Assembly (NCBI RefSeq): GCF_000787775.1
Contig: NZ_BBPM01000016.1
Coordinates: forward strand, 62,001 to 126,000
DNA: 64,000 bases
Reading direction: 5' to 3'
DNA from: Streptacidiphilus carbonis
Lineage (GTDB): Bacteria; Actinomycetota; Actinomycetes; Streptomycetales; Streptomycetaceae
Shown here piece by piece: positions 8,812 through 36,701 of the stretch. Every line of letters starts with the position of its first letter. Within the stretch, counting starts at the first letter, position 1. Under the pieces are notes generated by a model that was given only the letters and a program-made list of their open reading frames with translations, ran no database searches and was not told the DNA's origin. Position numbers and translations under genes: made by a program.

Positions 8812-9846
8812 CTACTTGAGATTGTCACCCGGACTCAGGTTCTTGTGGGCGTTTCTCGCTCTCTCGGCGCCGGCGCTGGCCGCATACCGGGCCAGCATCT
8901 GCCGGGACCGCCAGCCGGTGATCCGCATCAGGTCGTCCTCGTTGCCGCCGTTGACCTTCCACAGGTGCGCGAACGTATGCCTGAACTGGTGCGGGTGGAT
9001 GTGCCCGAGGCCGGCCTCTTCGGCCCGGCGCTCCAGCATGGTGCCCACGCCCCAGATCGTGAACGGCGCCTTGCTCTTGACCCCGACCCACAGCGGGGCG
9101 TCCGGCTCCGTGGAGCAGCCGTGCTTGGACAGGGCGCGCAGGTAGCGGTCGACGGCAGTCGCCGCGGTGCGGCCGATGGGCACCGCCCGCTCGCGGTTGC
9201 TCTTCCCCAGCACCCGCAGGACCTGCAGGTCGAGGTCGATGTCGCCGATGCTGCGCGCCGTCAGCTCGGTCAGGCGCACGCCAGTGTCGATGAACAGCAT
9301 GATGATCGCCAGGTCGCGGCGGGACGCGAAGTCCTTCCCGGAGCAGACGGTGATCAGCGCCTTCAGCGCGTTGTCGGAGATGACGGGCACCTCCTTCTCG
9401 CCCGGCGTCGGCGCCCGCATGCTCCGCATCGGGGAGCGGTCGAGCTCCTCCTCGTCGACGAGCCAGTTGAAGAACGTCTTCATCGGCCGGAACCTGACGT
9501 TTGCGGACGACGCGGAGGTGGTTTCGATCTCGTGGGTGATCCACGCCTCCAGATGCTCGCGGTGGACGGCGTCCAGAGTTTCGGGCGCGGGTAGGGCGTC
9601 GGGCTCCGGCGGCTTGTACGTGAGGATGTAGCGGCGCATCCGCTCGCCGGCCGTGCCGTAGACCTTGAGGGTCTGCTCGGCGACGTTGCGCGATTTCAGG
9701 GACCGCTTCCAGGAGTTGAGGAGGGGTCCGAAGTCGAAGGGGGCCGGCTGGTCGCTGCTGCTGAAACTCACGGCTGTGGTCATGTTCGTGAAGGTAGACC
9801 ACTGACCCCGTTGCTCATAGGCACTTGGCGGAAGAGCGATATGCAC
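8812..9846 (-). CDS. Tyrosine-type site-specific integrase
   Basis: A 344-residue protein with an N-terminal SAM-like core-binding domain (about residues 38-135) and a C-terminal catalytic domain. The catalytic set is present: R191 (TGVRLTEL), K215 (LGKSNRER), H286-x-x-R289 (HQFRHTF), W312 (GWRSRQML) and Y321 (ARYAAS). Xer/phage integrases use these residues for DNA strand exchange. The gene runs toward the element interior and starts 52 bases from the 3' end of a tRNA-Arg gene, its likely target. The first in-frame start is GTG; an ATG 21 codons later is an alternative, and neither has a good ribosome-binding site. Confidence 0.92.
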   Translation of the reverse strand: MHIALPPSAYEQRGQWSTFTNMTTAVSFSSSDQPAPFDFGPLLNSWKRSLKSRNVAEQTLKVYGTAGERMRRYILTYKPPEPDALPAPETLDAVHREHLEAWITHEIETTSASSANVRFRPMKTFFNWLVDEEELDRSPMRSMRAPTPGEKEVPVISDNALKALITVCSGKDFASRRDLAIIMLFIDTGVRLTELTARSIGDIDLDLQVLRVLGKSNRERAVPIGRTAATAVDRYLRALSKHGCSTEPDAPLWVGVKSKAPFTIWGVGTMLERRAEEAGLGHIHPHQFRHTFAHLWKVNGGNEDDLMRITGWRSRQMLARYAASAGAERARNAHKNLSPGDNLK

Positions 9847-9898
9847 AGGCCGGGCGGACTATGATGCTCCGCTGCACTGCTGGTCAGACTGGGTTTGT

Positions 9899-9970
9899 GC
9901 CCCCGGCAGGACTCGAACCTGCGGCCAAGTGCTTAGAAGGCACCTGCTCTATCCACTGAGCTACGGGGGC
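9899..9970 (-). tRNA. tRNA-Arg (anticodon UCU)
   Basis: A 72-nt cloverleaf with a 7-bp acceptor stem GCCCCCG/CGGGGGC, a D-arm AGCTCAGTGGATAGAGC, an anticodon loop CTTCTAA giving UCU, and a T-arm with GGTTCGAGTCC. No CCA is encoded. Its 3' end faces the integrase gene, so the attachment core probably lies in the T-arm and acceptor region; integration has left the tRNA sequence intact. Confidence 0.95.
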
Positions 9971-10416: not shown

Positions 10417-10599
10417 ATGAACAGCACGCTGGTGACGGTCGTGGGGCATGTGGCCTCGGATGTGCGGTACGCGACCACCGCGAACGGGGTGCCGGTGGCC
10501 AGCTTTCGGCTGGCGGCCACCGACCGGCGGTTCGACAAGCAGCGGGAGGTGTGGGTGGACGGGGACACCAGCTTCTACACCGTCTGGTCGTGCTCCTGA
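10417..10599 (+). pseudogene. ssb: 5' part of a split single-stranded DNA-binding protein gene
   Basis: The first 58 codons match an OB-fold SSB: TLVTVVGHVASDVRY, then GVPVASFRLAATDRRFD and DTSFYTVW. The frame then runs into element DNA and stops after two element-derived codons (CS). The rest of the gene resumes in frame at 36342, and together they would give a 177-residue SSB. Within Streptomycetaceae a second ssb elsewhere is common, which could explain tolerance of the disruption. Whether the 60-residue fragment is made is unknown. Confidence 0.88.
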
Positions 10600-10623: not shown

Positions 10624-12225
10624 ATGGCTCTCGGGAAACACCCCCTTCGCGTTGTCGGCGTACTTCGATTGAGTAACGAGACGGACGAGTCGACGTCCAT
10701 CGAGCGACAGCGCGCCCTCGTCAAGAACTGGGCCCAGGCCACCGGGAACGTGATGGTCGGCTGGTCGGAGGACGTGGACGTGTCCGGCGGCATCCGACCA
10801 TTCGCCCGCCCCGAGCTCGGCCCGTGGCTGGCCACCCCGGAGCGGTTCGACGCCCTAGTCGTATGGAAGCTCGACCGCCTCACCCGACGCGCCGCCCACT
10901 TCGTCGAGCTGCGGGACTGGGCCGAAGAGCACGGCATCGCCATCGTCAGCGTGACCGAGGGCTTCGACCTCAGCACCGCCATGGGCAAGATGTTCGCCAC
11001 GATCATCGCCGCGTTCGCCGAGGGCGAGCTGGAGACCATCCGGGAGCGCACCCGCGGCTCCCATGCCAGGCTCCGTCAGATCGGCCGCTACGCGGGCGCT
11101 CCGTGGCCCATGGGCTACCGCGCAGTGGATCTGCCCACCGGGGGCAAGACGCTCGTCCCAGAGCCCGAATACGCCGAGATCCTGCGCGGCATCATCCGCG
11201 ACGTCACCGAGGGCGTCTCCACCGCCGAGATCGCCCGGCGCCTCAACGCCGCGGGAGTGCTCACCTGGGGCGACAAGCGCGCGGAGCTGCGTGGTGCGGA
11301 GCCTGCGGAGACGCGTCAGCGGTGGACTGCGGACGTCGTGCAGCAGATCGTGCGGAACCCGGTCTGCGCCGGCTACCGGACCGAGAAGACCAAGGCGGAG
11401 GACGGCCGCTTCCTCCGGGCAGCGAAGATCGTCTATGACGAGGACGGCAACCCCGTGATGGCCACCACCACGCCGGTGGTGACGCCGTCGGAGTGGATGA
11501 AGGCCAGGACGGCGATGATGGCCCGCGGCACCACGGTGGAGCGTGCGGCCCGAGCTGAGTCGATGCTGCAGGGCGTCGCCAAGTGCGGCAGCTGCGGTAC
11601 CAACTTGTACCAGCATCGGCAGACCAAGAAGCTCAAGAGCGGGACCCGCGAGTACTGCTACTACCGCTGCCAGGGCGAACGAAAGGGGCACGACTGCGCC
11701 AGCCCCGCCAACATCGACGTCGACTCGGCCGAGCGCGAGGTCGGCGCCGCCCTGCTGTTCATCCTCGGGCAGAGCGAGATCACCCGGCTCGACCATGATC
11801 CCGGCGAGGACTACAGCGCCGAGATCATGGAGGCGCGTCGGCGGCTCGACGAGTTGGAGGATGACTACCTGGTGGGCAAGTACGACTCCCCCGAGGGCAA
11901 GCGCCGGTACGAGCGGCTGCACGCCCGCGCCTGCGACCAGGTCGACCGGCTGCTCGCCCTGCCGGTACGCCGGGCTTCGACCCGGACCGTGGGCAGCGGG
12001 GAGACGTACGGGCAGCGCTGGGAGCGGTGCGACCGACTGGAGCGGCGCGCGTTCTTGCTGGAGCAGGAGTTCGCCGTCACGGTCCACGCTCCGGGCACGC
12101 TGGAGCATCCGGTGACCGGGGAACTCAACACGGCCCCCGCGGTCGTCCTGGAGGTCCCTGAGAGGCTTCGTGGGACCCCTGGGGCTCCCGTGTTCACCGT
12201 GCCGCCGGGCACTCGACTGGGATAG
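10624..12225 (+). CDS. Large serine integrase
   Basis: A 533-residue protein. The catalytic domain starts VVGVLRLSNETDESTSIERQ with nucleophile Ser17, followed by LDRLTRR and a FATIIAAFAEGELE helix (about residues 90-145). A recombinase domain follows, then a zinc ribbon (CGSCG near 321 with YYRC and CASP around 345-360), a coiled-coil segment and a C-terminal tail. Large serine integrases join attP and attB through a 2-bp staggered cut and need a separate directionality factor to excise. Its position next to attL and the reconstructed attP dyad make it the enzyme that inserted element C into ssb. Confidence 0.95.
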   Translation: MALGKHPLRVVGVLRLSNETDESTSIERQRALVKNWAQATGNVMVGWSEDVDVSGGIRPFARPELGPWLATPERFDALVVWKLDRLTRRAAHFVELRDWAEEHGIAIVSVTEGFDLSTAMGKMFATIIAAFAEGELETIRERTRGSHARLRQIGRYAGAPWPMGYRAVDLPTGGKTLVPEPEYAEILRGIIRDVTEGVSTAEIARRLNAAGVLTWGDKRAELRGAEPAETRQRWTADVVQQIVRNPVCAGYRTEKTKAEDGRFLRAAKIVYDEDGNPVMATTTPVVTPSEWMKARTAMMARGTTVERAARAESMLQGVAKCGSCGTNLYQHRQTKKLKSGTREYCYYRCQGERKGHDCASPANIDVDSAEREVGAALLFILGQSEITRLDHDPGEDYSAEIMEARRRLDELEDDYLVGKYDSPEGKRRYERLHARACDQVDRLLALPVRRASTRTVGSGETYGQRWERCDRLERRAFLLEQEFAVTVHAPGTLEHPVTGELNTAPAVVLEVPERLRGTPGAPVFTVPPGTRLG

Positions 12226-15886: not shown

Positions 15887-17475
15887 CCGTCGACCGGAAC
15901 GACGACGGTCAGCCGGACGTCATGCCCGACTACCGAGACGGGGTGGAGAAGGCGCCCTTCTGGGACGAAGACCCGAACGACCTCGGTGACTATCCCGACT
16001 ACCTGCGCGAGGCGGACGAGGCCGAAGCCCGCGACACGCGGTACCAAGGAGAACCGCCGGACGAGGTGGACCCGGCGGAGGGCGTGGCTCGGGAGGAGCA
16101 GATCCTCCCGAGCCCGACCAATCCGATGGCCGTCGCACGTGAGCTCCTGCCTGCGTGGCTGCACGGGCGAGCTCTGAAGCTCCGCCGGTGGCACGGAGAT
16201 TGGGTGCTCTGGGTAGGACCGCACTGGATTGCGGTCGACGGCGATGCGATGCGGGCTGACCTGTACCCGCGGCTGGAGCACGCGACCTATCAGTACGTCG
16301 ACAGGAAGGGCGAGCAAAAGACTGCTCCCTGGGCGCCGACATCCGGCAAGGTCGGCAACCTCATGGAGGCTCTGGCGTCCATCGTCCACCTTCCTTCCGA
16401 TGTTGAGACCCCCGGATGGTTGGCCGCTCCGGAGTCGACTGCCAGCCGGGCGCCCGTGATCGCCTGCCGCAACGGGTTGCTGGACATCTCGACGCGACAG
16501 CTGCAGCCGCTGACGCCTCTGTACTTCAACCGGGTCTCCGTCCCGTTCGACTACGTCGCCGACGCGCCCGTGCCCGTTCGCTGGATCGGATTCCTGTCCT
16601 CCCTGTGGCCCGGGGATCCCGAGGCGGTCTTGGCCGTGCAGGAGTGGTTCGGCTACATCCTCTCGGGGCGCACCGACCTGCAGAAGATGATGCTGATCAT
16701 CGGGCCGCCGCGCTCCGGGAAGGGCACTATCGCCCGAACCCTGACCGCGCTGGTCGGCAAGGCGAACATGGCTGGCCCGACCCTGGCTGGCCTGTCGACG
16801 AACTTCGGCCTGTCGCCACTGCTGGACAAGACGCTGGCCATCGTCTCCGACGCCCGCCTCCCCCGGATCGGCACCGAGGTCGTGGTCGAGCGCCTCCTGT
16901 CCATCTCGGGCGAGGACACCCTCGACGTGGACCGCAAGTACCGCGACCCGTGGACCGGCCGCATCCCGGTCCGGTTCCTGCTGCTGTCCAACGAGCTGCC
17001 CGCCTTCGCGGACGCATCCGGCGCTATCGCCAGCCGGCTGATCGTGCTGACGATGGTGAACTCGTTCCTCGGCAAGGAGGACCGAGCCCTGGAGGGCGAC
17101 CTCAACCGGGAGCTGCCGGGCATCTTGAACTGGTCGCTCGACGGCCTGCAGAGCCTCATCGAGCGCGGCCGGTTCAGCGAGCCGAAGTCCTCGGCCGACG
17201 CGGTCGCCATGCTCGCCGCCTCGGTCTCGCCGATCAAGGCGTTCCTCGGAGAGCTGTGCACCGTCGGTCCCGAGCACCGCGTACCGACCGACCTTCTGTA
17301 CGAGGCCTGGGCTGACTGGTGCAAGGACTCGGGCCGCGATCACAAGGGCACCAAGGAGACCTTCGGCCGCAACCTGCTGGCCGCAGTTCCCGGGTTGCGA
17401 CAGACCCGGCCGCTCGTGAACAAGGTCAAGGTCCGGATGTACCAGGGCGTCACGCTCGGGCAGGTCGGGTCATGA
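15883..17475 (+). CDS. P4-type primase-helicase (SF3 helicase) replication protein
   Basis: A 530-residue protein. The N-terminal 230 residues include a D5-type region (WIGFLSSLWPGDPEAVLAVQ) leading into an SF3 helicase core with Walker A GPPRSGKGT (about residues 271-279), a later DARLPRIG segment and the arginine-rich sensor region FLLLSNELP. The C-terminal domain is winged-helix-like. This is the phage/plasmid primase C-terminal (P4 alpha) family, which opens and unwinds the origin. No separate zinc-binding primase domain is obvious, so it may act only as helicase and initiator. It stops 8 bp before an iteron array that is its natural candidate target. Confidence 0.9.
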   Translation: MTVDRNDDGQPDVMPDYRDGVEKAPFWDEDPNDLGDYPDYLREADEAEARDTRYQGEPPDEVDPAEGVAREEQILPSPTNPMAVARELLPAWLHGRALKLRRWHGDWVLWVGPHWIAVDGDAMRADLYPRLEHATYQYVDRKGEQKTAPWAPTSGKVGNLMEALASIVHLPSDVETPGWLAAPESTASRAPVIACRNGLLDISTRQLQPLTPLYFNRVSVPFDYVADAPVPVRWIGFLSSLWPGDPEAVLAVQEWFGYILSGRTDLQKMMLIIGPPRSGKGTIARTLTALVGKANMAGPTLAGLSTNFGLSPLLDKTLAIVSDARLPRIGTEVVVERLLSISGEDTLDVDRKYRDPWTGRIPVRFLLLSNELPAFADASGAIASRLIVLTMVNSFLGKEDRALEGDLNRELPGILNWSLDGLQSLIERGRFSEPKSSADAVAMLAASVSPIKAFLGELCTVGPEHRVPTDLLYEAWADWCKDSGRDHKGTKETFGRNLLAAVPGLRQTRPLVNKVKVRMYQGVTLGQVGS

Positions 17476-17483
17476 ACGATCTT

Positions 17484-17747
17484 GGACCGGGTTCGGACCG
17501 GGTTCGGACCGGGTTCCAGGCCGCACCCGGGCCGGTAAAGCCGCAGATCAGAGCGTGCGTGGACCGGGTGGACCGGGTGGACCGGGTTCTACAGAGAACT
17601 TCTCGTGTGCGGGCGCATGCGCAGGAACGACAGCTCCAAACAATGCAGCGGAACCCGGTCCACCCGGTCCACGCCACTCAAAACGGCCTCCCACCTGCAC
17701 CTTTCCTGGACCGGGTTCCTTCGGTCCGACCCGGTCCAACCCGGTCC
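17484..17747. repeat. Iteron array, candidate replication origin
   Basis: Eleven exact copies of the 9-mer GGACCGGGT. Rightward copies start at 17484, 17495 and 17506 (11-bp steps), 17561, 17570 and 17579 (9-bp steps) and 17708. Leftward copies (ACCCGGTCC) start at 17653, 17662, 17729 and 17739. Two copies plus flanks form a perfect 22-bp inverted repeat (17568-17589 against 17651-17672). The array fills the gap after the primase-helicase gene. Phage P4 initiates at iterons bound by its own primase-helicase, so this is most simply the element's origin; a partition site is the main alternative. Confidence 0.85.
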
Positions 17748-17771: not shown

Positions 17772-18008
17772 ATGAACCACGACCCAGAACGGGACCCTGC
17801 AGCCGACCTCGCCGTGATCCTCCGCGCCTCGGCCGAGCGCCGCATCGCCGAGCAGGTCGCCGCGGCAGCCCGGCGCCGGGAAGCCCAGCAGCAGACCCGC
17901 GCCGAGTTCACGGCAAGCCGTACAGCCGGAGTCCGCAGGCGCAATTCCGCCCGGGAAGCACGACTCCGCATGATCGCCAACCACCAGCAGGCCGAGGAGG
18001 CACCATGA
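17772..18008 (+). CDS. Small Arg/Ala-rich helical protein
   Basis: A 78-residue protein, almost all predicted helix and strongly basic (SAERRIAEQVAAAARRREAQ, VRRRNSAREARLRM). An in-frame ATG 100 codons upstream exists, but the intervening sequence is the iteron array, so the later ATG is chosen. Overlaps the next gene's start. Could bind nucleic acid; function unknown. Confidence 0.62.
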   Translation: MNHDPERDPAADLAVILRASAERRIAEQVAAAARRREAQQQTRAEFTASRTAGVRRRNSAREARLRMIANHQQAEEAP

Positions 18009-18727
18009 CCCGGCCCGAAGACCACACCCCGCCCTCGATCATCTGGGGACGCTGCCCCGGCGGAGGCCGATGGTTCTGGACCGCCCGCATCGTCGGCGGT
18101 GAAGACCGGCACGGCTGGGCCTCCAACCGCAACGACGCCGCCAGGAAAGCCAACCGCGCGGCCGTCCTGCTCGCCGTCGGCCAGTACGCCAGCATCCGCA
18201 TCAACGACGACGACGCCGAACTGAAGCTCGCGGCCGTCATCGCCGAGAAGCACGCCCAGGCCAAGGCCGAGGACAAGAAGCGCACAGCCGCCGGCGAGAC
18301 CCCGGTCAACCTCTACGCCGTCGAACGCGGCTACTACGACCACGGCGCCTGCCACTGGGTCCACTCCAGGATCGTGCGACTCCCGGTCACCAAGACCACG
18401 CCCCGGCGGATCTACTTCCTGCGCAGCAGCGAGCCCGGCGAGTACGAACGCGGCTACATCGACCGGCAGGACTTCGAGGCCCGCGGCTGGGTCTACTCCA
18501 GCCGCTACAACAAGATCTACGCCAAGCCGCCGGAGCTCCCGAACGACAAGCCGTTCATCCCGCCGCCGTTCCGCTCCGAGTACCCGTACGCACCGGTCTC
18601 CGAGCTGGAGTTGAAGCGGCTCAAGATCGCCATGCGCGACGCCCACCCCGACAAGGGCGGCAGCAGCGAGGCGTTCATCAAAGCGCGAGCCGAGTACGAG
18701 CACGCCCGCGACCGAGTCAGCCGATGA
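18005..18727 (+). CDS. J-domain-like protein next to the origin
   Basis: A 240-residue protein. The N-terminal part (to about residue 95) has SIIWGRCPGGGRWFWTARIV and a Lys/Ala-rich helix. The C-terminal 40 residues match the core of a J-domain: LKRLKIAMRDAHPDKGGSSE (HPD at 214-216), then a second helix FIKARAEYEHARD. J-domains stimulate Hsp70 ATPase, and DnaJ-DnaK helps remodel replication initiators in lambda and several plasmids. GAGGAGG lies upstream of the ATG. A role in activating the origin complex is an inference from position. Confidence 0.78.
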   Translation: MTRPEDHTPPSIIWGRCPGGGRWFWTARIVGGEDRHGWASNRNDAARKANRAAVLLAVGQYASIRINDDDAELKLAAVIAEKHAQAKAEDKKRTAAGETPVNLYAVERGYYDHGACHWVHSRIVRLPVTKTTPRRIYFLRSSEPGEYERGYIDRQDFEARGWVYSSRYNKIYAKPPELPNDKPFIPPPFRSEYPYAPVSELELKRLKIAMRDAHPDKGGSSEAFIKARAEYEHARDRVSR

Positions 18728-19484: not shown

Positions 19485-20063
19485 ATGACCCACCCAGCCA
19501 CGACAGCCGCTAGCGGAACACCACCGGACATGATCAGCGCAGCGCACGTTGCGGGCCCGTCCCACGCGCGCGGGAAGGTGGTGGAGGCGATGCCGCTGAC
19601 GGATCAGCAGCGTTTGACGATCTGCGAGCGCGCTGACGCGGGCATGTCGGTGCGCCAGATCGCGGCCGAGTTGTCCGTCGCGCCGAGCACGGTGACGCGG
19701 GCCGCCAAGAGCCTCGGTGTGGTCTTCGACCGGTCGGCGACCGAGCGGGCGACGGCGGCCCGGGTCGCGGACGGCCGTGCCCGGCGTGCCGAGCTCGCCG
19801 AGCGGCTCATCGAGCTGGCCAACGGCGAGCTGGACCAGTTGTCACGCCCGTGCCGGGTGCACGCGTTCGTGGGCGGACAGGCACCGACGTTCCTGGAGCA
19901 CGTGCTGCCGCAGCCGGACGCCACGACGCGGCTGGCGATCGCCCGGACCGCAGCGGTGTTCCTGGACCGGCACGTGCGACTCCTCGACGCGGACCGCACG
20001 GCCGCCGACAGCTGCTCGGATGTCGACGCATGGCTGTCGGCGCTGACGGGAGGCGCCCTGTGA
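19485..20063 (+). CDS. HTH protein, copy 1 of a duplicated cassette
   Basis: A 192-residue protein. After a 35-residue variable N-terminus comes a helix-turn-helix (MSVRQIAAELSVAPSTVTRA), then FDRSATERATAARVADGRAR, and a C-terminal domain with FVGGQAPTFLEHVLPQPDA and AAVFLDRHVRLL. The pattern recalls small HTH proteins of actinophages annotated as terminase small subunits, but no large terminase is present here. A close relative lies at 20308. Probably DNA-binding; role unknown. Confidence 0.8.
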   Translation: MTHPATTAASGTPPDMISAAHVAGPSHARGKVVEAMPLTDQQRLTICERADAGMSVRQIAAELSVAPSTVTRAAKSLGVVFDRSATERATAARVADGRARRAELAERLIELANGELDQLSRPCRVHAFVGGQAPTFLEHVLPQPDATTRLAIARTAAVFLDRHVRLLDADRTAADSCSDVDAWLSALTGGAL

Positions 20064-20314
20064 GCGTGGACCGGGCCACCCGCGACGCCCTGGCCGTGAT
20101 GGCAGCGCAGCTGCGTGGTGACGAGCAGGGCGTGGCCGCGCTGATCGGGGACTGTGACCTTCCGGCGGTGGCGGTGGTCCTGGCGGACTACGCCGCCGAG
20201 GCCGTGCGCTTGGCGGGCGGCCGGGAGGTCGGTGACGGGGATCTCGCCGAGCTCCTCGGGGTGCACCTGAGGCGCCTCGCGGGCGGCAGCACCCGGGGTG
20301 GTGGGTCGTGCTGA
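20060..20314 (+). CDS. Small helical partner, copy 1
   Basis: An 84-residue protein that starts at the GTG inside the previous stop. AAQLRGDEQGVAALIGDC and AVVLADYAAEAVRLAGG resemble the 20804 product (GARLRGDVDGERVLLGDC), so it is the partner gene of the duplicated cassette. It has no catalytic motif. Confidence 0.75.
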   Translation: MSVDRATRDALAVMAAQLRGDEQGVAALIGDCDLPAVAVVLADYAAEAVRLAGGREVGDGDLAELLGVHLRRLAGGSTRGGGSC

Positions 20315-20814
20315 GCGATGAGCAGCGGCTGCGCCTGTGCGAGCTCGCGGAGGGCGGCATGTCAGTGCGGCAGATCGCCGAGCATCTGGGTGTGGCGCCG
20401 TCGACGGTGACCCGGAACGCGAAGGGCCTCGGAGTCCTGTTCGACCGGTCGGCCACGGAGGCGGCTACCGCGGCGAGGATCGCGGACGGGCAGGCCCGGC
20501 GTACCCAGTTGGCGTCGAGGCTGCTGGACTTGGCGAACAGCGAGCTGGACCGGCTCTCGCGCCCGTACCGGATGTCGTCGTTCGTGGGCGGCCAGGCGCC
20601 GGCCTATCTGGAGCATGTGGTGCCGCAGCCGGATGCCGTGTCGCGTCTTGCGATCATCCGTGGCGCGGCGACGCTGCTGGATCGTCACGTCCGGCTGGCC
20701 GGGATGGCGGGCAGTGAGGGCCTGGAGTCGGCGAAGAGCCTGCTCGGTTCCCTGGCGCAGAGCCTGGGCGAATACCAGACCGACCGGGATGCGGAGGCCG
20801 ACGGTGCGAGTTGA
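20308..20814 (+). CDS. HTH protein, copy 2 of a duplicated cassette
   Basis: A 168-residue protein. The same order as copy 1: MSVRQIAEHLGVAPSTVTRN, FDRSATEAATAARIADGQAR, FVGGQAPAYLEHVVPQPDA and LLDRHVRLAG, with a different C-terminal tail (AKSLLGSLAQSLGEYQ). It lacks copy 1's N-terminal extension. The copies have diverged at many positions, so the duplication is not recent. Confidence 0.84.
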   Translation: MLSDEQRLRLCELAEGGMSVRQIAEHLGVAPSTVTRNAKGLGVLFDRSATEAATAARIADGQARRTQLASRLLDLANSELDRLSRPYRMSSFVGGQAPAYLEHVVPQPDAVSRLAIIRGAATLLDRHVRLAGMAGSEGLESAKSLLGSLAQSLGEYQTDRDAEADGAS

Positions 20815-23586: not shown

Positions 23587-24585
23587 ATGTCAGCCGAACT
23601 GGTCCCCGCCTCCGTGCCGCTGCCCGCCACGGTCGACTCCACCGTCTCGGACAGCACCCGGGACCGGCTCGACCGCTCGGTGCCGGAGAATACCCGCCGC
23701 GCCTACGCCCGCCAGTGGAACATCTTCACCGACTGGTGCGGCTCGACCGGGCGCACCCCGATGCCGGCCACCGCGCACACCCTCGCGGAGTACGTCAGCC
23801 ACCTCGCCGACCTCGACCGCGCCCCCAGCACCATCGAGCAGGCCATCGCAGCGATCCGCACCGCCCACCGGACCGCCGGGCACCGCGGCCTGCCCGAGAC
23901 CGACGCCGCCCTGGCCGTACTGAAGGTCCACCGACGGGACCGGGCCGCCGCGGGCAAGCGGAAGCGGAAGGCTCCGCCGGTCACCCTCAAGCCGCTCCGG
24001 GCGATGATCGAGGCCACCGACCCGAAGACGCCGAAGGGGCTGCGGGATCGCGCCCTGATCGTGCTCGGCTTCGCGGCGATGGCCCGCCGCTCCGAGCTCG
24101 CCGCGCTGCAGATCGAGGACATCCGGTTCACCGACGACGGGCTCACCGTTCTGGTGCGGTCCAGCAAGACCGACCAGGACGCTGTCGGTGCCGAGGCCCA
24201 CATCCCGCACGGCGTCCACCCCGACACCGACCCCGTCCGCGTGGTCCGCGCCTGGCTCCAGGTCCTGGCGGAGCACGACGTCACCGCGGGTCCGCTGCTG
24301 CGCCGCATCAACCGCTGGGGCCAGCTGCAGCCCGGCGGGATGTCCGGGGCGGCCGTGAACGAGGCGGTGCAGCGGCTCGCCGAGGCCGCGGGCCTGGACG
24401 GCGCGGCGGACTTCACCGCGCACGGTCTGCGCGCCGGCGGTCCAACCGAGGCTGCGAAGGCCGGTCACCCGACCAGCTTCATCGCCGAGCACGGCCGCTG
24501 GTCCAAGACCAGCCCGCAGGTGCTGGAGTACATCCGGCCCGTCGAAAAATGGCGGGACAACCCGATGCGCGGCATCGGGCTGTGA
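23587..24585 (+). CDS. Cre-like tyrosine recombinase
   Basis: A 332-residue protein close in length to P1 Cre (343). Catalytic residues are R168 (ARRSEL), K194 (SSKTDQ), H279-x-x-R282 (HGLRAG), W305 (GRWSKTSP) and Y315 (LEYIRP). The Trp before the nucleophile and the YIR ending match Cre (GGWTN, NYIRN) rather than the His of XerC/D. The N-terminal domain shares the Cre feel of NTRRAYARQWNIFTDWC and GRTPMPA. Cre resolves phage-plasmid dimers at loxP. Here a serine integrase already handles integration, so a separate resolvase role is plausible. Confidence 0.88.
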   Translation: MSAELVPASVPLPATVDSTVSDSTRDRLDRSVPENTRRAYARQWNIFTDWCGSTGRTPMPATAHTLAEYVSHLADLDRAPSTIEQAIAAIRTAHRTAGHRGLPETDAALAVLKVHRRDRAAAGKRKRKAPPVTLKPLRAMIEATDPKTPKGLRDRALIVLGFAAMARRSELAALQIEDIRFTDDGLTVLVRSSKTDQDAVGAEAHIPHGVHPDTDPVRVVRAWLQVLAEHDVTAGPLLRRINRWGQLQPGGMSGAAVNEAVQRLAEAAGLDGAADFTAHGLRAGGPTEAAKAGHPTSFIAEHGRWSKTSPQVLEYIRPVEKWRDNPMRGIGL

Positions 24586-29208: not shown

Positions 29209-29371
29209 GGGAGGCGCAGCACCCCCGCCGCAGTAGCCGCTCCGGGCTGCTGGACGGTGCCGGATCACCCGCCTCCCTGCCTCCCTAAACAGCCATCTAT
29301 GCAGGTCAGCCCGAGGGAGGCGGCCCAGGGAGGCGGTGAGGGAGAACTCCCCGCCTCCCCGGCCGCCTCCC
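29209..29371. repeat. Cluster of 8-bp repeats beside traB (clt-like)
   Basis: GGGAGGCG occurs exactly three times rightward (29209, 29315, 29328) and three times inverted as CGCCTCCC (29270, 29352, 29364), plus a one-mismatch copy (29278). All lie within 165 bp directly downstream of the traB stop. Streptomyces TraB proteins recognise clustered 8-bp repeats (TRS) in a non-coding clt locus next to traB; this is the same layout with a different word. Confidence 0.72.
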
Positions 29372-29375
29372 CGGA

Positions 29376-31532
29376 TCAAAACTCGTCGGAGTCGCCCTCC
29401 GCGGCCCGCTCGGCAAGGGCTTCCAAGACCCGATCCCGGCTGACGACCATGTTGCCGTTGGACTTGTACGGCGCCGCCCCGAACGGCTCCAGTGCCTGCT
29501 TGAGATCGGATGCGGTCCAGCTGCGGTACTCGGCCGGGTTGAGGACGGTCAGCCGCTGGCGGATGTCGTCGGTGCCGACGCGGGCCTCGTCGCCGATCAC
29601 AGTGGCGATGTCGGCCAGGTGGTCGACCGGCGCGGCCGGCTCGACGCCGCGGGTGGTGACGCCGGAGCGCAGGGCCTTGGCGCGGTCGGTGATCTGCATG
29701 GCCTCCTCGTCGTTGACGTAGTGCGTGCGCACGTTCAGCGACACCTGGCCGGGCGGGAGCTGCACGCCGTCGCCGGCGACGACCAGCTGTCCCTTGTCCA
29801 GGCCCTGCCGCAGCTTGTGCGGCGCAGCACCCGCCTCGACCGGGGACTCGCCGAGCGCCATCTTGGCCTGCGACTCCGTGCCCAGGACCAGCGCGGCCCG
29901 GATGTGGTTGCCCTCGCGCGAACGCTTGGGCAGGTTCTGGTCGGTCGGGTCCTGGGTGCCCTCCCAGATCGTGACGTTCACCGCCCGCCCCTGGTCGTGG
30001 ATGCCCTTCACGGCCTGGAAGTAGCGGCTGAGGGCCTTGGCGCCGCCGTAGGGCCGCTTGTCCACGCCGATGGCGCCGGAGCCGTAGGCGACCTGGGCCT
30101 CGTCGACGATGACGACCAGGGGCGGGAACACGGTGCCCTTGGGTGCCATCAGGCGGCGCTGCTGCTCGGCGAACACGGCCTCGACCATCTCGGTCACGGC
30201 GATGACGTGCTCGTCGGTCGGGCCCTCGATCAGGACCGAGGCCAGGCCCTCGAACATCTCCCAGTCCCCAACGCCCTTGAGGTCCCCGATGCGGAAGTCG
30301 ACGGTGGGGTCGAGGGCGAGCCACAGCGCCAGGGCCCGCAGGCTGGCGGTCTTGCCCTGGTTGGACAGGCCGGTCACCAGCACGTGTTTCTGGAACAGGC
30401 TGAGGCTGGCGGCGTCGCCACGCAGGTCCAGGCCCCAGGGTGCGCGGCCTGTCTTGTAGCTGGCGGTCATGGTGGGGTCGGTGACCAGCGGCGAGGCGGG
30501 CACGGGCTCGTCCAGGGCGCCACTGTCCGCGATCCACAGACGCACGGTGCGGGCGGCAGGGGCGACGCTGATGTACAGCTCATGCTCGTGGCGGCCCATG
30601 TTCTCCGCCAGCTTCCGGCGCCGGTTCATGACGTCCTCGGTCGACGAGCCGGTGGGCAGATGGACGTCGACCTCGACCCCGCAGCCGGCCATGGTGATCG
30701 GGCCGAGCATCGCGGCCCCGGCGTCGCCCATCTCCTTGATGGAGGTGCGCAGCGGGGCGACGCCCAGGTCGCGCAGGGCGACGACGACGATCGACGGGGT
30801 GATCGGCGCGCCCTCATTGCTGAGCTTGCCGCCGGGCAGCATCCACGCCGGAGCCGCGCCGTGCTTACGGCCGACCGCCCACAGCGCCGCCAGGGCGACG
30901 AACGGGACCGCGGTCAGGGTCGGGTCCCACAGGAACGCGACGACGGCGCAGACCCACGCCACGGTGTCGACGGCGCCGGTGACCGGGACCAGGACGTCGG
31001 CGATCTGGTGCTCGGCAATCGCCATGACGATGCCGATGACGAGGAGCGTGCCGACGCCCAGGACGGTCGCGATGGCGGCGCCGCGGGCGACGTGGATCGG
31101 TGCGGCGAGCAGGTCCATGCGGCGCCGGTGGCGGGCGGCGCGGAACGAGGCCCCGCGCGCTTCCCACTCCTGCGCGGCCTCGACGTTGCCGACGGCCTCC
31201 GCCGCGCGGATCATCCGCTCGTACCGGGCCGCTGTACGCCCGTCCCAGGCCCGGCGGCCGGCGACCAGTCCGCCGGCGACCACGAACGAGGGGTGACGGA
31301 CTAGGAAGCGGCCGAGCGCGGCCGTGCGCTCATGGGTGGCAGCCACCCGCACGGCACGGGTGCTACGCCGAACCAGCCCCGGGCGCCCCGGCGGAGCGCT
31401 GATGGCCTCGGCGGCCAGCTGCTCGGCGCCGGTGCTGATGACGGTGCCCTCGATGGGCTGGCGCGGCCCGGGGACCGTCTTGTCGAGCCGGACGGGCTGC
31501 GGGTGCCCGTTGACCCTGTCGGTGATGGCCAT
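29376..31532 (-). CDS. traB: TraB/FtsK-type DNA translocase
   Basis: A 718-residue protein. Two membrane segments (about 149-172 and 188-222), then an FtsK/SpoIIIE motor with Walker A GLSNQGKT (388-395) and Walker B VVIVDEAQ (473-480), and a C-terminal winged-helix-like domain (about 640-718) suited to reading DNA repeats. TraB hexamers move double-stranded plasmid DNA between mycelial compartments without a relaxase. The start chosen overlaps the stop of the upstream membrane-protein gene (ATGA). Candidate recognition repeats lie just past its stop codon. Confidence 0.9.
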   Translation of the reverse strand: MAITDRVNGHPQPVRLDKTVPGPRQPIEGTVISTGAEQLAAEAISAPPGRPGLVRRSTRAVRVAATHERTAALGRFLVRHPSFVVAGGLVAGRRAWDGRTAARYERMIRAAEAVGNVEAAQEWEARGASFRAARHRRRMDLLAAPIHVARGAAIATVLGVGTLLVIGIVMAIAEHQIADVLVPVTGAVDTVAWVCAVVAFLWDPTLTAVPFVALAALWAVGRKHGAAPAWMLPGGKLSNEGAPITPSIVVVALRDLGVAPLRTSIKEMGDAGAAMLGPITMAGCGVEVDVHLPTGSSTEDVMNRRRKLAENMGRHEHELYISVAPAARTVRLWIADSGALDEPVPASPLVTDPTMTASYKTGRAPWGLDLRGDAASLSLFQKHVLVTGLSNQGKTASLRALALWLALDPTVDFRIGDLKGVGDWEMFEGLASVLIEGPTDEHVIAVTEMVEAVFAEQQRRLMAPKGTVFPPLVVIVDEAQVAYGSGAIGVDKRPYGGAKALSRYFQAVKGIHDQGRAVNVTIWEGTQDPTDQNLPKRSREGNHIRAALVLGTESQAKMALGESPVEAGAAPHKLRQGLDKGQLVVAGDGVQLPPGQVSLNVRTHYVNDEEAMQITDRAKALRSGVTTRGVEPAAPVDHLADIATVIGDEARVGTDDIRQRLTVLNPAEYRSWTASDLKQALEPFGAAPYKSNGNMVVSRDRVLEALAERAAEGDSDEF

Positions 31533-31735
31533 CAGCGGGACCTGACCTGTGCGGTCGGGTGCTTGGCCCGCCAGTAGAGGGCGGCGACCAGCAGGAGCAG
31601 GACGGCGCCCGGCTGGGCGACGATCCACGGCACCAGCACGGTGGTCGCGGGGACCACGACGGCGCGCAGCTGGTAGCAGAGGAGGAGCAGCAGGCCGAGC
31701 AGGAGCAGGGTCGAGGGGCGGGCGGTGCGGAGCAT
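31532..31735 (-). CDS. Small membrane protein coupled to TraB
   Basis: A 67-residue protein with two hydrophobic segments (STLLLLGLLLLLCYQL and VAQPGAVLLLLVAALYW). GGAGGT lies 5 bases before the ATG, and its stop overlaps the TraB start. Spread (Spd) proteins of Streptomyces plasmids are often small membrane proteins encoded beside tra; that role is an inference. Confidence 0.74.
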   Translation of the reverse strand: MLRTARPSTLLLLGLLLLLCYQLRAVVVPATTVLVPWIVAQPGAVLLLLVAALYWRAKHPTAQVRSR

Positions 31736-36343: not shown

Positions 36344-36701
36344 GTGGAGGTGGTTGGCGGAGAACGTGCTCGCCTCCGTCGGACGGGGCGATCCACTGCT
36401 GGTGACCGGGCGGATGCGGGTGAGGGAGTGGGACAACGGGGAGGGGAAGGCCCGGGGCTACGCCGCCGAGATCGAGGCGACTGCGATCGGGCACGATCTG
36501 TCTCGCGGAACCTCGGCGTTCCGCCGGGCCGTGCGGGCGCGGCCCGAACTGGTGGCCAAGGCCTCGACGCGGGCCGCCGGGCCGGAGGAGGTACTGCCCG
36601 GCGACCAGGGAAAGGGGACACCGGCCGATCCGCGGTCCGCGGCACCCGCTCCGGTCCTGGTAGGAGCCGCCGCGGCGGGGGACGGCGAACCGGGTGTGTA
36701 A
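36342..36701 (+). pseudogene. ssb: 3' part of the split ssb gene
   Basis: 119 codons in frame with the fragment at 10417. They carry the second half of the OB fold (WLAENVLASVGRGDPLLVTG, RMRVREWDNGEGKARGYAAE, IEATAIGHDLSRGTSAFRR) and a low-complexity tail. No start codon or ribosome-binding site suits independent translation, though a TTG at 36354 exists. It lacks the usual acidic DDDIPF-type C-terminal tip, as in some Streptomyces SSB paralogues. Confidence 0.86.

Follow-up and report, generated by a model that had tools for sequence, protein, structure and literature searches.

The alpha protein of phage P4 is a D5/P4-type SF3 helicase that works on iterons; primase and helicase are fused in this protein, and the P4 iterons lie in two separate regions. 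PICI origins are located immediately 3' of rep and contain an AT-rich region between two iteron sets, a layout that was once described as common to no other known replicon (PMC6092414). The Cch2 protein of SCCmec uses its C-terminal domain to bind and unwind repeats located just 3' of the cch2 gene itself (PMC7581432). For actinomycete elements, the part of an AICE survey consulted here mentions a Poxvirus_D5 protein in one AICE as an unusual replication gene, and the origin is not described in that part (PMC3218068).

Within the 64-kb stretch of Streptacidiphilus carbonis DNA analyzed here (the window), a 264-bp iteron array directly follows an SF3 helicase gene that lies in an integrative element. 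As a precedent for this array, the SaPI/PICI rep-ori is closer than P4. Both the SaPI/PICI module and the window locus have an SF3 initiator helicase with a C-terminal domain (predicted to bind DNA in the window), an origin (a candidate in the window) that directly follows the initiator gene (the first iteron of the window is 8 bp past the helicase stop codon at 17475), and two iteron sets about an AT-rich region, which is modest here (57% vs 68% GC). The window element differs from the SaPIs and PICIs in that it is actinobacterial, has a serine integrase and an FtsK-like gene, and has no primase fused to the helicase or found nearby. Helper-phage induction or packaging is not in evidence, and we do not file the window element as a PICI. 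The P4 protein has a fused primase whereas the window helicase has none, and the likeness between the two is taken from the general description of P4. Cch2, a putative initiator, shares with the window helicase the position of the repeats just downstream of its gene (PMC7581432), but its iterons are three in number and 5 nt long and its partner is an A-family polymerase-primase, whereas the dyad of the window locus has eleven 9-mers and no partner of this type accompanies the helicase. The element also differs from the AICE Prim-Pol, RepPP and Pox_D5 modules in being without a Prim-Pol.

The integrative element

In two relatives from the same genus, the match to the window ends at position 10592 and resumes at 36345 with a 2-bp overlap, and tRNA-Arg and ettA are close together. 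Because the flanks of both relatives abut without intervening DNA, the window contains an insertion of approximately 25.75 kb (Table 1). The empty-site ORF includes MNSTLVTVVGHVASEVRYATTASGVPVASFRL, and by our reading of the sequences the insertion target appears to be ssb-like; the names ssb and ettA were both assigned by such reading. A direct-repeat search revealed no att repeats of note, and the borders were set by the empty sites instead. As to the features by which AICEs are recognized, the serine integrase and the empty site are clear, and the FtsK-like protein is clear in the PHROG search and below the cut-off of Pfam. It is possible that the tyrosine recombinase of the element is a resolvase or a former integrase, and either this protein or the serine integrase may act as a multimer resolvase. 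A GntR regulator is among the element genes, and no capsid or terminase was identified with confidence among the element ORFs scanned.

Table 1. Features of the element, helicase gene and iteron array (window coordinates)
Feature	Position	Strand	Remarks
Integrative element, ~25.75 kb	10593-36344		In ssb-like gene (by our reading) between tRNA-Arg and ettA; empty site in two relatives
Large serine recombinase/integrase	10624-12225	+	Left end of element; Resolvase, Recombinase and Zn_ribbon_recom domains
SF3 helicase, presumed replication initiator, 530 aa	15883-17475	+	Pfam D5_N, DUF5906 AAA+ core, C-terminal winged helix (Pox_D5)
C-terminal winged-helix domain, residues 459-530	17257-17472	+	From secondary structure of AlphaFold model and covariation
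Left outer iteron block	17484-17514	+	3 direct copies, 11-bp step
Central dyad	17557-17674		22-bp perfect inverted repeats: 17557-17578/17653-17674 and 17568-17589/17651-17672
Left inner iteron set	17561-17587	+	3 direct copies, 9-bp step
Core, presumed melting region	17588-17652		65 bp, GC 57% vs 68% in helicase gene
Right inner iteron pair	17653-17670	-	2 inverted copies, 9-bp step
Right outer block	17708-17747		1 direct copy (17708-17716) and 2 inverted copies (17729-17737, 17739-17747)
Tyrosine recombinase, second of element	23587-24585	+	76% identical to one in a related Kitasatospora element (L205)
GGGAGGC/GCCTCCC repeats, candidate transfer (clt) site	29209-29371		7 copies; 5 bp from end of FtsK-like gene
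FtsK/SpoIIIE-like protein, candidate conjugative DNA translocase	29376-31628	-	PHROG FtsK-like, E 1.5e-13; Pfam below cut-off

The iteron array

By exact count, the 264 bp from 17484 to 17747 contain eleven copies of GGACCGGGT, seven on the plus strand and four on the minus strand, with steps of 11,11 / 9,9 / 9 / 10 bp, so that the copy number, the orientations, the span of the array and the two phased sets (11-bp and 9-bp steps) given in a preliminary description of this DNA were all recovered. The order of the array is that of a dyad: an outer block, an inner set, the 65-bp core, the inverted inner pair and a second outer block. The same description gave one perfect 22-bp inverted repeat in the middle; it is present and perfect, and there are two such repeats. 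At 43% A+T the core of the window is below most of the cores of its relatives, and the drop in GC relative to the gene is modest.

The number of GGACCGGGT copies expected by chance is 1.7 (1.69) per 64 kb and approximately 0.007 per 264 bp, in agreement with the earlier statement that the expectation for the array is far below one. Across the 8.46-Mb genome there were 616 occurrences, compared with 534 for a reversed-pattern control. Because these two counts are near each other, isolated copies of the 9-mer represent background, and the prediction that it would be concentrated at the array held for its clusters. A search for three copies separated by gaps of at most 30 bp yielded two matches in the genome, both inside the array, and none for the control, while the double-inverted core pattern has a single occurrence in the genome. 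The DnaA box TTGTCCACA, with up to one mismatch allowed, was not found in the array region.

The SF3 helicase

The AlphaFold model of the helicase has a mean pLDDT of 86, and when it was used in a fold search of the PDB the top six matches were all to the SaPI5 primase-helicase (best 7ola/7om0). The best sequence match of the family profile was also to the SaPI5 primase-helicase (7ola, E 4e-26), and no match was found between the helicase and RepSA, RepAM or Prim-Pol. In the model, the winged helix has a recognition helix at residues 491-501 and a wing at approximately 506-520, flanked by strands 506-508 and 519-525. The matches of the helicase to PHROG primase families, which are about 770-850 residues long, fall mainly in the C-terminal halves of those families, and the helicase therefore has no fused primase domain. 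A genome-wide search for Prim-Pol (PF09250) gave no match on the contig of the element. In the element ORFs scanned, no primase of another family turned up either, and host priming is therefore presumed. The gene beside the array had been called a P4-type primase-helicase; the P4/D5-type SF3 helicase of that name stands, and the primase does not, there being none fused and no Prim-Pol on the contig.

Arrays next to related helicases

Our scans provided 169 usable helicase loci, 122 of them non-redundant (<90% identity, with enough downstream DNA). Within the 500 bp that follow the helicase domain on its 3' side, a single 8-mer was present in at least five exact copies at 48 of the 122 loci (39%), compared with 29 of 1680 other windows (1.7%) used as a control. 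Sixty of the 122 had fewer than four exact copies, many of them in one Streptomyces clade in which copies are degenerate or few. The layout immediately follows homologous helicase genes with identities as low as approximately 31%, and in its recurring form has inner pairs 8-10 bp apart that are inverted about a core of 60-124 bp. For 19 loci, the mean GC content of the core was 0.45, compared with 0.67 in the gene (p = 8e-6). The large Streptomyces clade has a compact array, often with few or degenerate copies, in which the orientation of the arms is opposite. The association of gene and iterons that was anticipated for related elements thus exists at homologous helicase loci with arrays at the same place; what is conserved is the layout and not the 9-mer, as each lineage has its own iteron.

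The iteron of the window lineage is TGGACCGGGT, while TGAGCCGGGT and TGTGCCGGGT occur with 70% and 66% identical helicases. The iteron is TGTTCAGGG on the S. virginiae plasmid NZ_CP108186.1 and GGGCCCCGCC on the Pseudonocardia plasmid NZ_CP053567.1; TGGTCCGCGA, TGGGCCGCGA and TGAGTCGCGA belong to the Streptomyces clade, and those of further lineages include TGTGCAGGGA and TGTCCCGG. A TG-nn-C frame can be seen in many of the iterons, not in all, and the layout is steadier than the sequence.

An array at the same place accompanies the homologs on two complete circular plasmids, one of 16 kb and one of 27 kb, and in the two plasmid relatives a Prim-Pol gene is paired with the helicase homolog. 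The Pseudonocardia (L043) and S. virginiae (L042) plasmids named above are small circular plasmids with the helicase-origin module that also hold an integrase and phage genes (capsid and terminase, or terminase alone), making them candidate phage-plasmids or satellites. The minimum of GC skew was tried as an origin marker and set aside: for the element and the 16-kb plasmid it fell about 2 kb off the array, and for the 27-kb plasmid it was far away. Skew is confounded by gene strand and carried no clear origin signal.

Several other short sequences recur at these loci. A second motif, CAGGTCA/TGACCTG, is present in 35% of origin regions and 11% of other windows, alongside iterons that differ, and the window has a near match to it (GCAGATCAGA) at 17543-17552; this motif could be a host-factor site. 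The sequence AGCAATGT occurs in 14% of origin regions and 0.2% of other windows, in Streptomyces relatives (L022 and L026, for example), and lies just 3' of the compact iteron arrays in the loci that were inspected by eye. In addition to the GGGAGGC/GCCTCCC cluster beside the FtsK-like gene of the window, the 8-mer AGGGAGGC forms clusters in many Streptomyces relatives, where it lies upstream of the helicase; these repeats are a candidate transfer site of the element family.

Residue 516 of the wing and base 3 of the iteron

In order to compare iterons with helicases, 83 loci were labeled with iterons read off consensus sequences, partly by hand, a tree was made from the helicase core only (residues 72-440), and every protein column was scanned as a predictor of G at base 3 of the iteron. 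The top column was residue 516, which is in the wing and is K in the window: 12 of 14 independent pairs agreed and none opposed (sign test p = 0.0005, a value that depends on including weakly supported branches). The next-best columns were 513, 528, 518, 517 and 514. With strongly supported branches only, there were three to five pairs, none of them opposing, which is too few to reach significance. Loci with Q at residue 516 had AG in the iteron in 45 cases and TG in 7, those with R or K had G at base 3 in 22, and those with L had TT in 3. Exceptions to this rule were R with TGAG (L124), R with TGTC (4 cases), K with TGAC (L146) and M with TGTG (L373).

Pairs of loci with switched iterons have cores that are 94-96% identical and helix regions that are 91-98% identical, whereas their wings are just 43-57% identical. 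L055 and L058, for example, are 93.8% identical in the core, 91.1% in the helix region and 42.9% in the wing, with iterons TGGTCCGCGA vs TGAGTCGCGA; the corresponding values for L026 and L116 are 95.6%, 93.3% and 50.0%. Because the wing and the origin are neighbors in the DNA, recombination that exchanges them together and co-evolution in steps are equally likely. By either route, these comparisons suggest that wing and iterons must match. We regard as evenly balanced the proposal that the iteron specificity of these widespread SF3 initiators of actinobacterial integrative elements, plasmids and phages would come mainly from the C-terminal wing, with residue 516 as a main determinant (Q: TGAG/TGTG; R/K: TGG; L: TGTT), and that the compatibility group would be switched by way of a small wing-plus-origin cassette while the helicase is kept.

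A search in the reverse direction began from DNA alone: 2.9 million viral contigs were searched for tandem iterons, and arrays with both orientations were checked for a helicase ORF pointing at them. A related helicase ORF was directed at 20 of 27 TGGTCAGGG arrays and at 9 of 10 TGTGCCGGG arrays. Most TGTTCAGGG clusters were small and only 2 of 19 had a helicase; the 17 without an adjoining helicase are probably unrelated repeats and were set aside. At the TGGTCAGGG loci with an alignable wing, residue 516 was R in 16 of 16 (11 distinct wings), as the rule predicts, a figure to be read with no baseline for the frequency of R among distant relatives. The sole alignable TGTGCCGGG case (L373) had M at this position, where Q was predicted.

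Proposed origin function and alternative explanations

The genome has only one such array, homologous helicases have arrays of their own, and the iteron origin beside a P4/D5-type SF3 helicase that was first put forward for this DNA is the best-supported reading. We consider it very probable that the array is the oriV of the 25.75-kb integrative element, used by its own SF3 helicase through the C-terminal winged helix in theta replication with host primers. In this scheme the element would excise and the helicase would bind the iterons by its winged helix, two hexamers forming on the two inverted, 9-bp-phased inner sets. The hexamers would melt the 65-bp A+T-enriched core between these sets and load outward, giving bidirectional theta replication from primers that the host would supply, and the outer blocks may add affinity or copy-number control.

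Were the element a relic with an array that no longer works, or its origin located elsewhere, the failure to find a primase in it would be accounted for, and excision or replication of this copy is something that we infer only. However, neither the 11 iterons nor the two 22-bp inverted repeats have any mismatch, and the helicase and integrase genes are intact; we judge this explanation very improbable. The array might instead be a conjugation site made up of short repeats for TraB, the FtsK-like translocase of actinomycete elements, as the element encodes an FtsK-like gene and the AICE survey, in the part consulted, has TraB proteins binding a cis-acting locus, clt (PMC3218068). However, 12 kb separate the array from the FtsK-like gene, and a GGGAGGC cluster belonging to that gene lies 5 bp from it. 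Many phage contigs and plasmids have an array after the helicase gene, and arrays track the wing of the helicase. Since the FtsK-like gene has repeats of its own and arrays follow the helicase, a conjugation site is very unlikely.

We give equally little credence to an operator at which the helicase or an HTH protein of the element would control downstream genes rather than the start of replication. The array does occupy a 296-bp gap ahead of the next ORF (17772), and initiators of iteron replicons often autoregulate, but it lies downstream, not upstream, of the helicase gene, the genes 3' of it vary between relatives, and an operator would not need inner pairs inverted about a symmetric, A+T-rich core. 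An additional regulatory role for the array is possible. A partition site of the centromere type, to which a ParB-like protein would bind, the other suggestion of the preliminary description, is hardly credible: plasmid centromeres also have phased direct and inverted iterons, but positive evidence for such a site is lacking, no match to the ParA or ParB families was obtained among the element ORFs scanned, and in different lineages the array keeps to the 3' end of the helicase gene and covaries with the helicase.

Taken as the iteron origin of an actinobacterial integrative element, the locus is new and of a kind already known; in our view the breadth of the layout and the link between wing and iteron are most striking. 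The element class gains a defined candidate origin, and the PICI-type origin layout extends widely across AICE-like elements, circular plasmids and phage contigs. Near-identical helicases with different iterons provide a natural test of how initiators recognize their own origin, a recognition that decides plasmid compatibility and could guide the design of new Streptomyces vectors.

Other features of the window

The ORF at 18005-18727, beside the candidate origin, encodes HPDKGG near its C-terminus; the J-domain protein to which this signature pointed was rejected, as the ORF matched nothing in Pfam or the PDB and has no counterpart in relatives, and the motif is absent near the other loci. 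Two tandem HTH genes of PHROG family 5536, with 73% DNA identity over 300 bp, are located at 19595-20609. A tyrosine recombinase gene at 8812-9846 lies to the left of tRNA-Arg and abuts its 3' end, outside the insertion studied here. Similarity to the relatives is lost left of 9897, and the 3' end of the tRNA has a 46-bp exact copy on another contig (G000:C82:29121-29166). A second element is probably integrated at tRNA-Arg (window 8812-9970).
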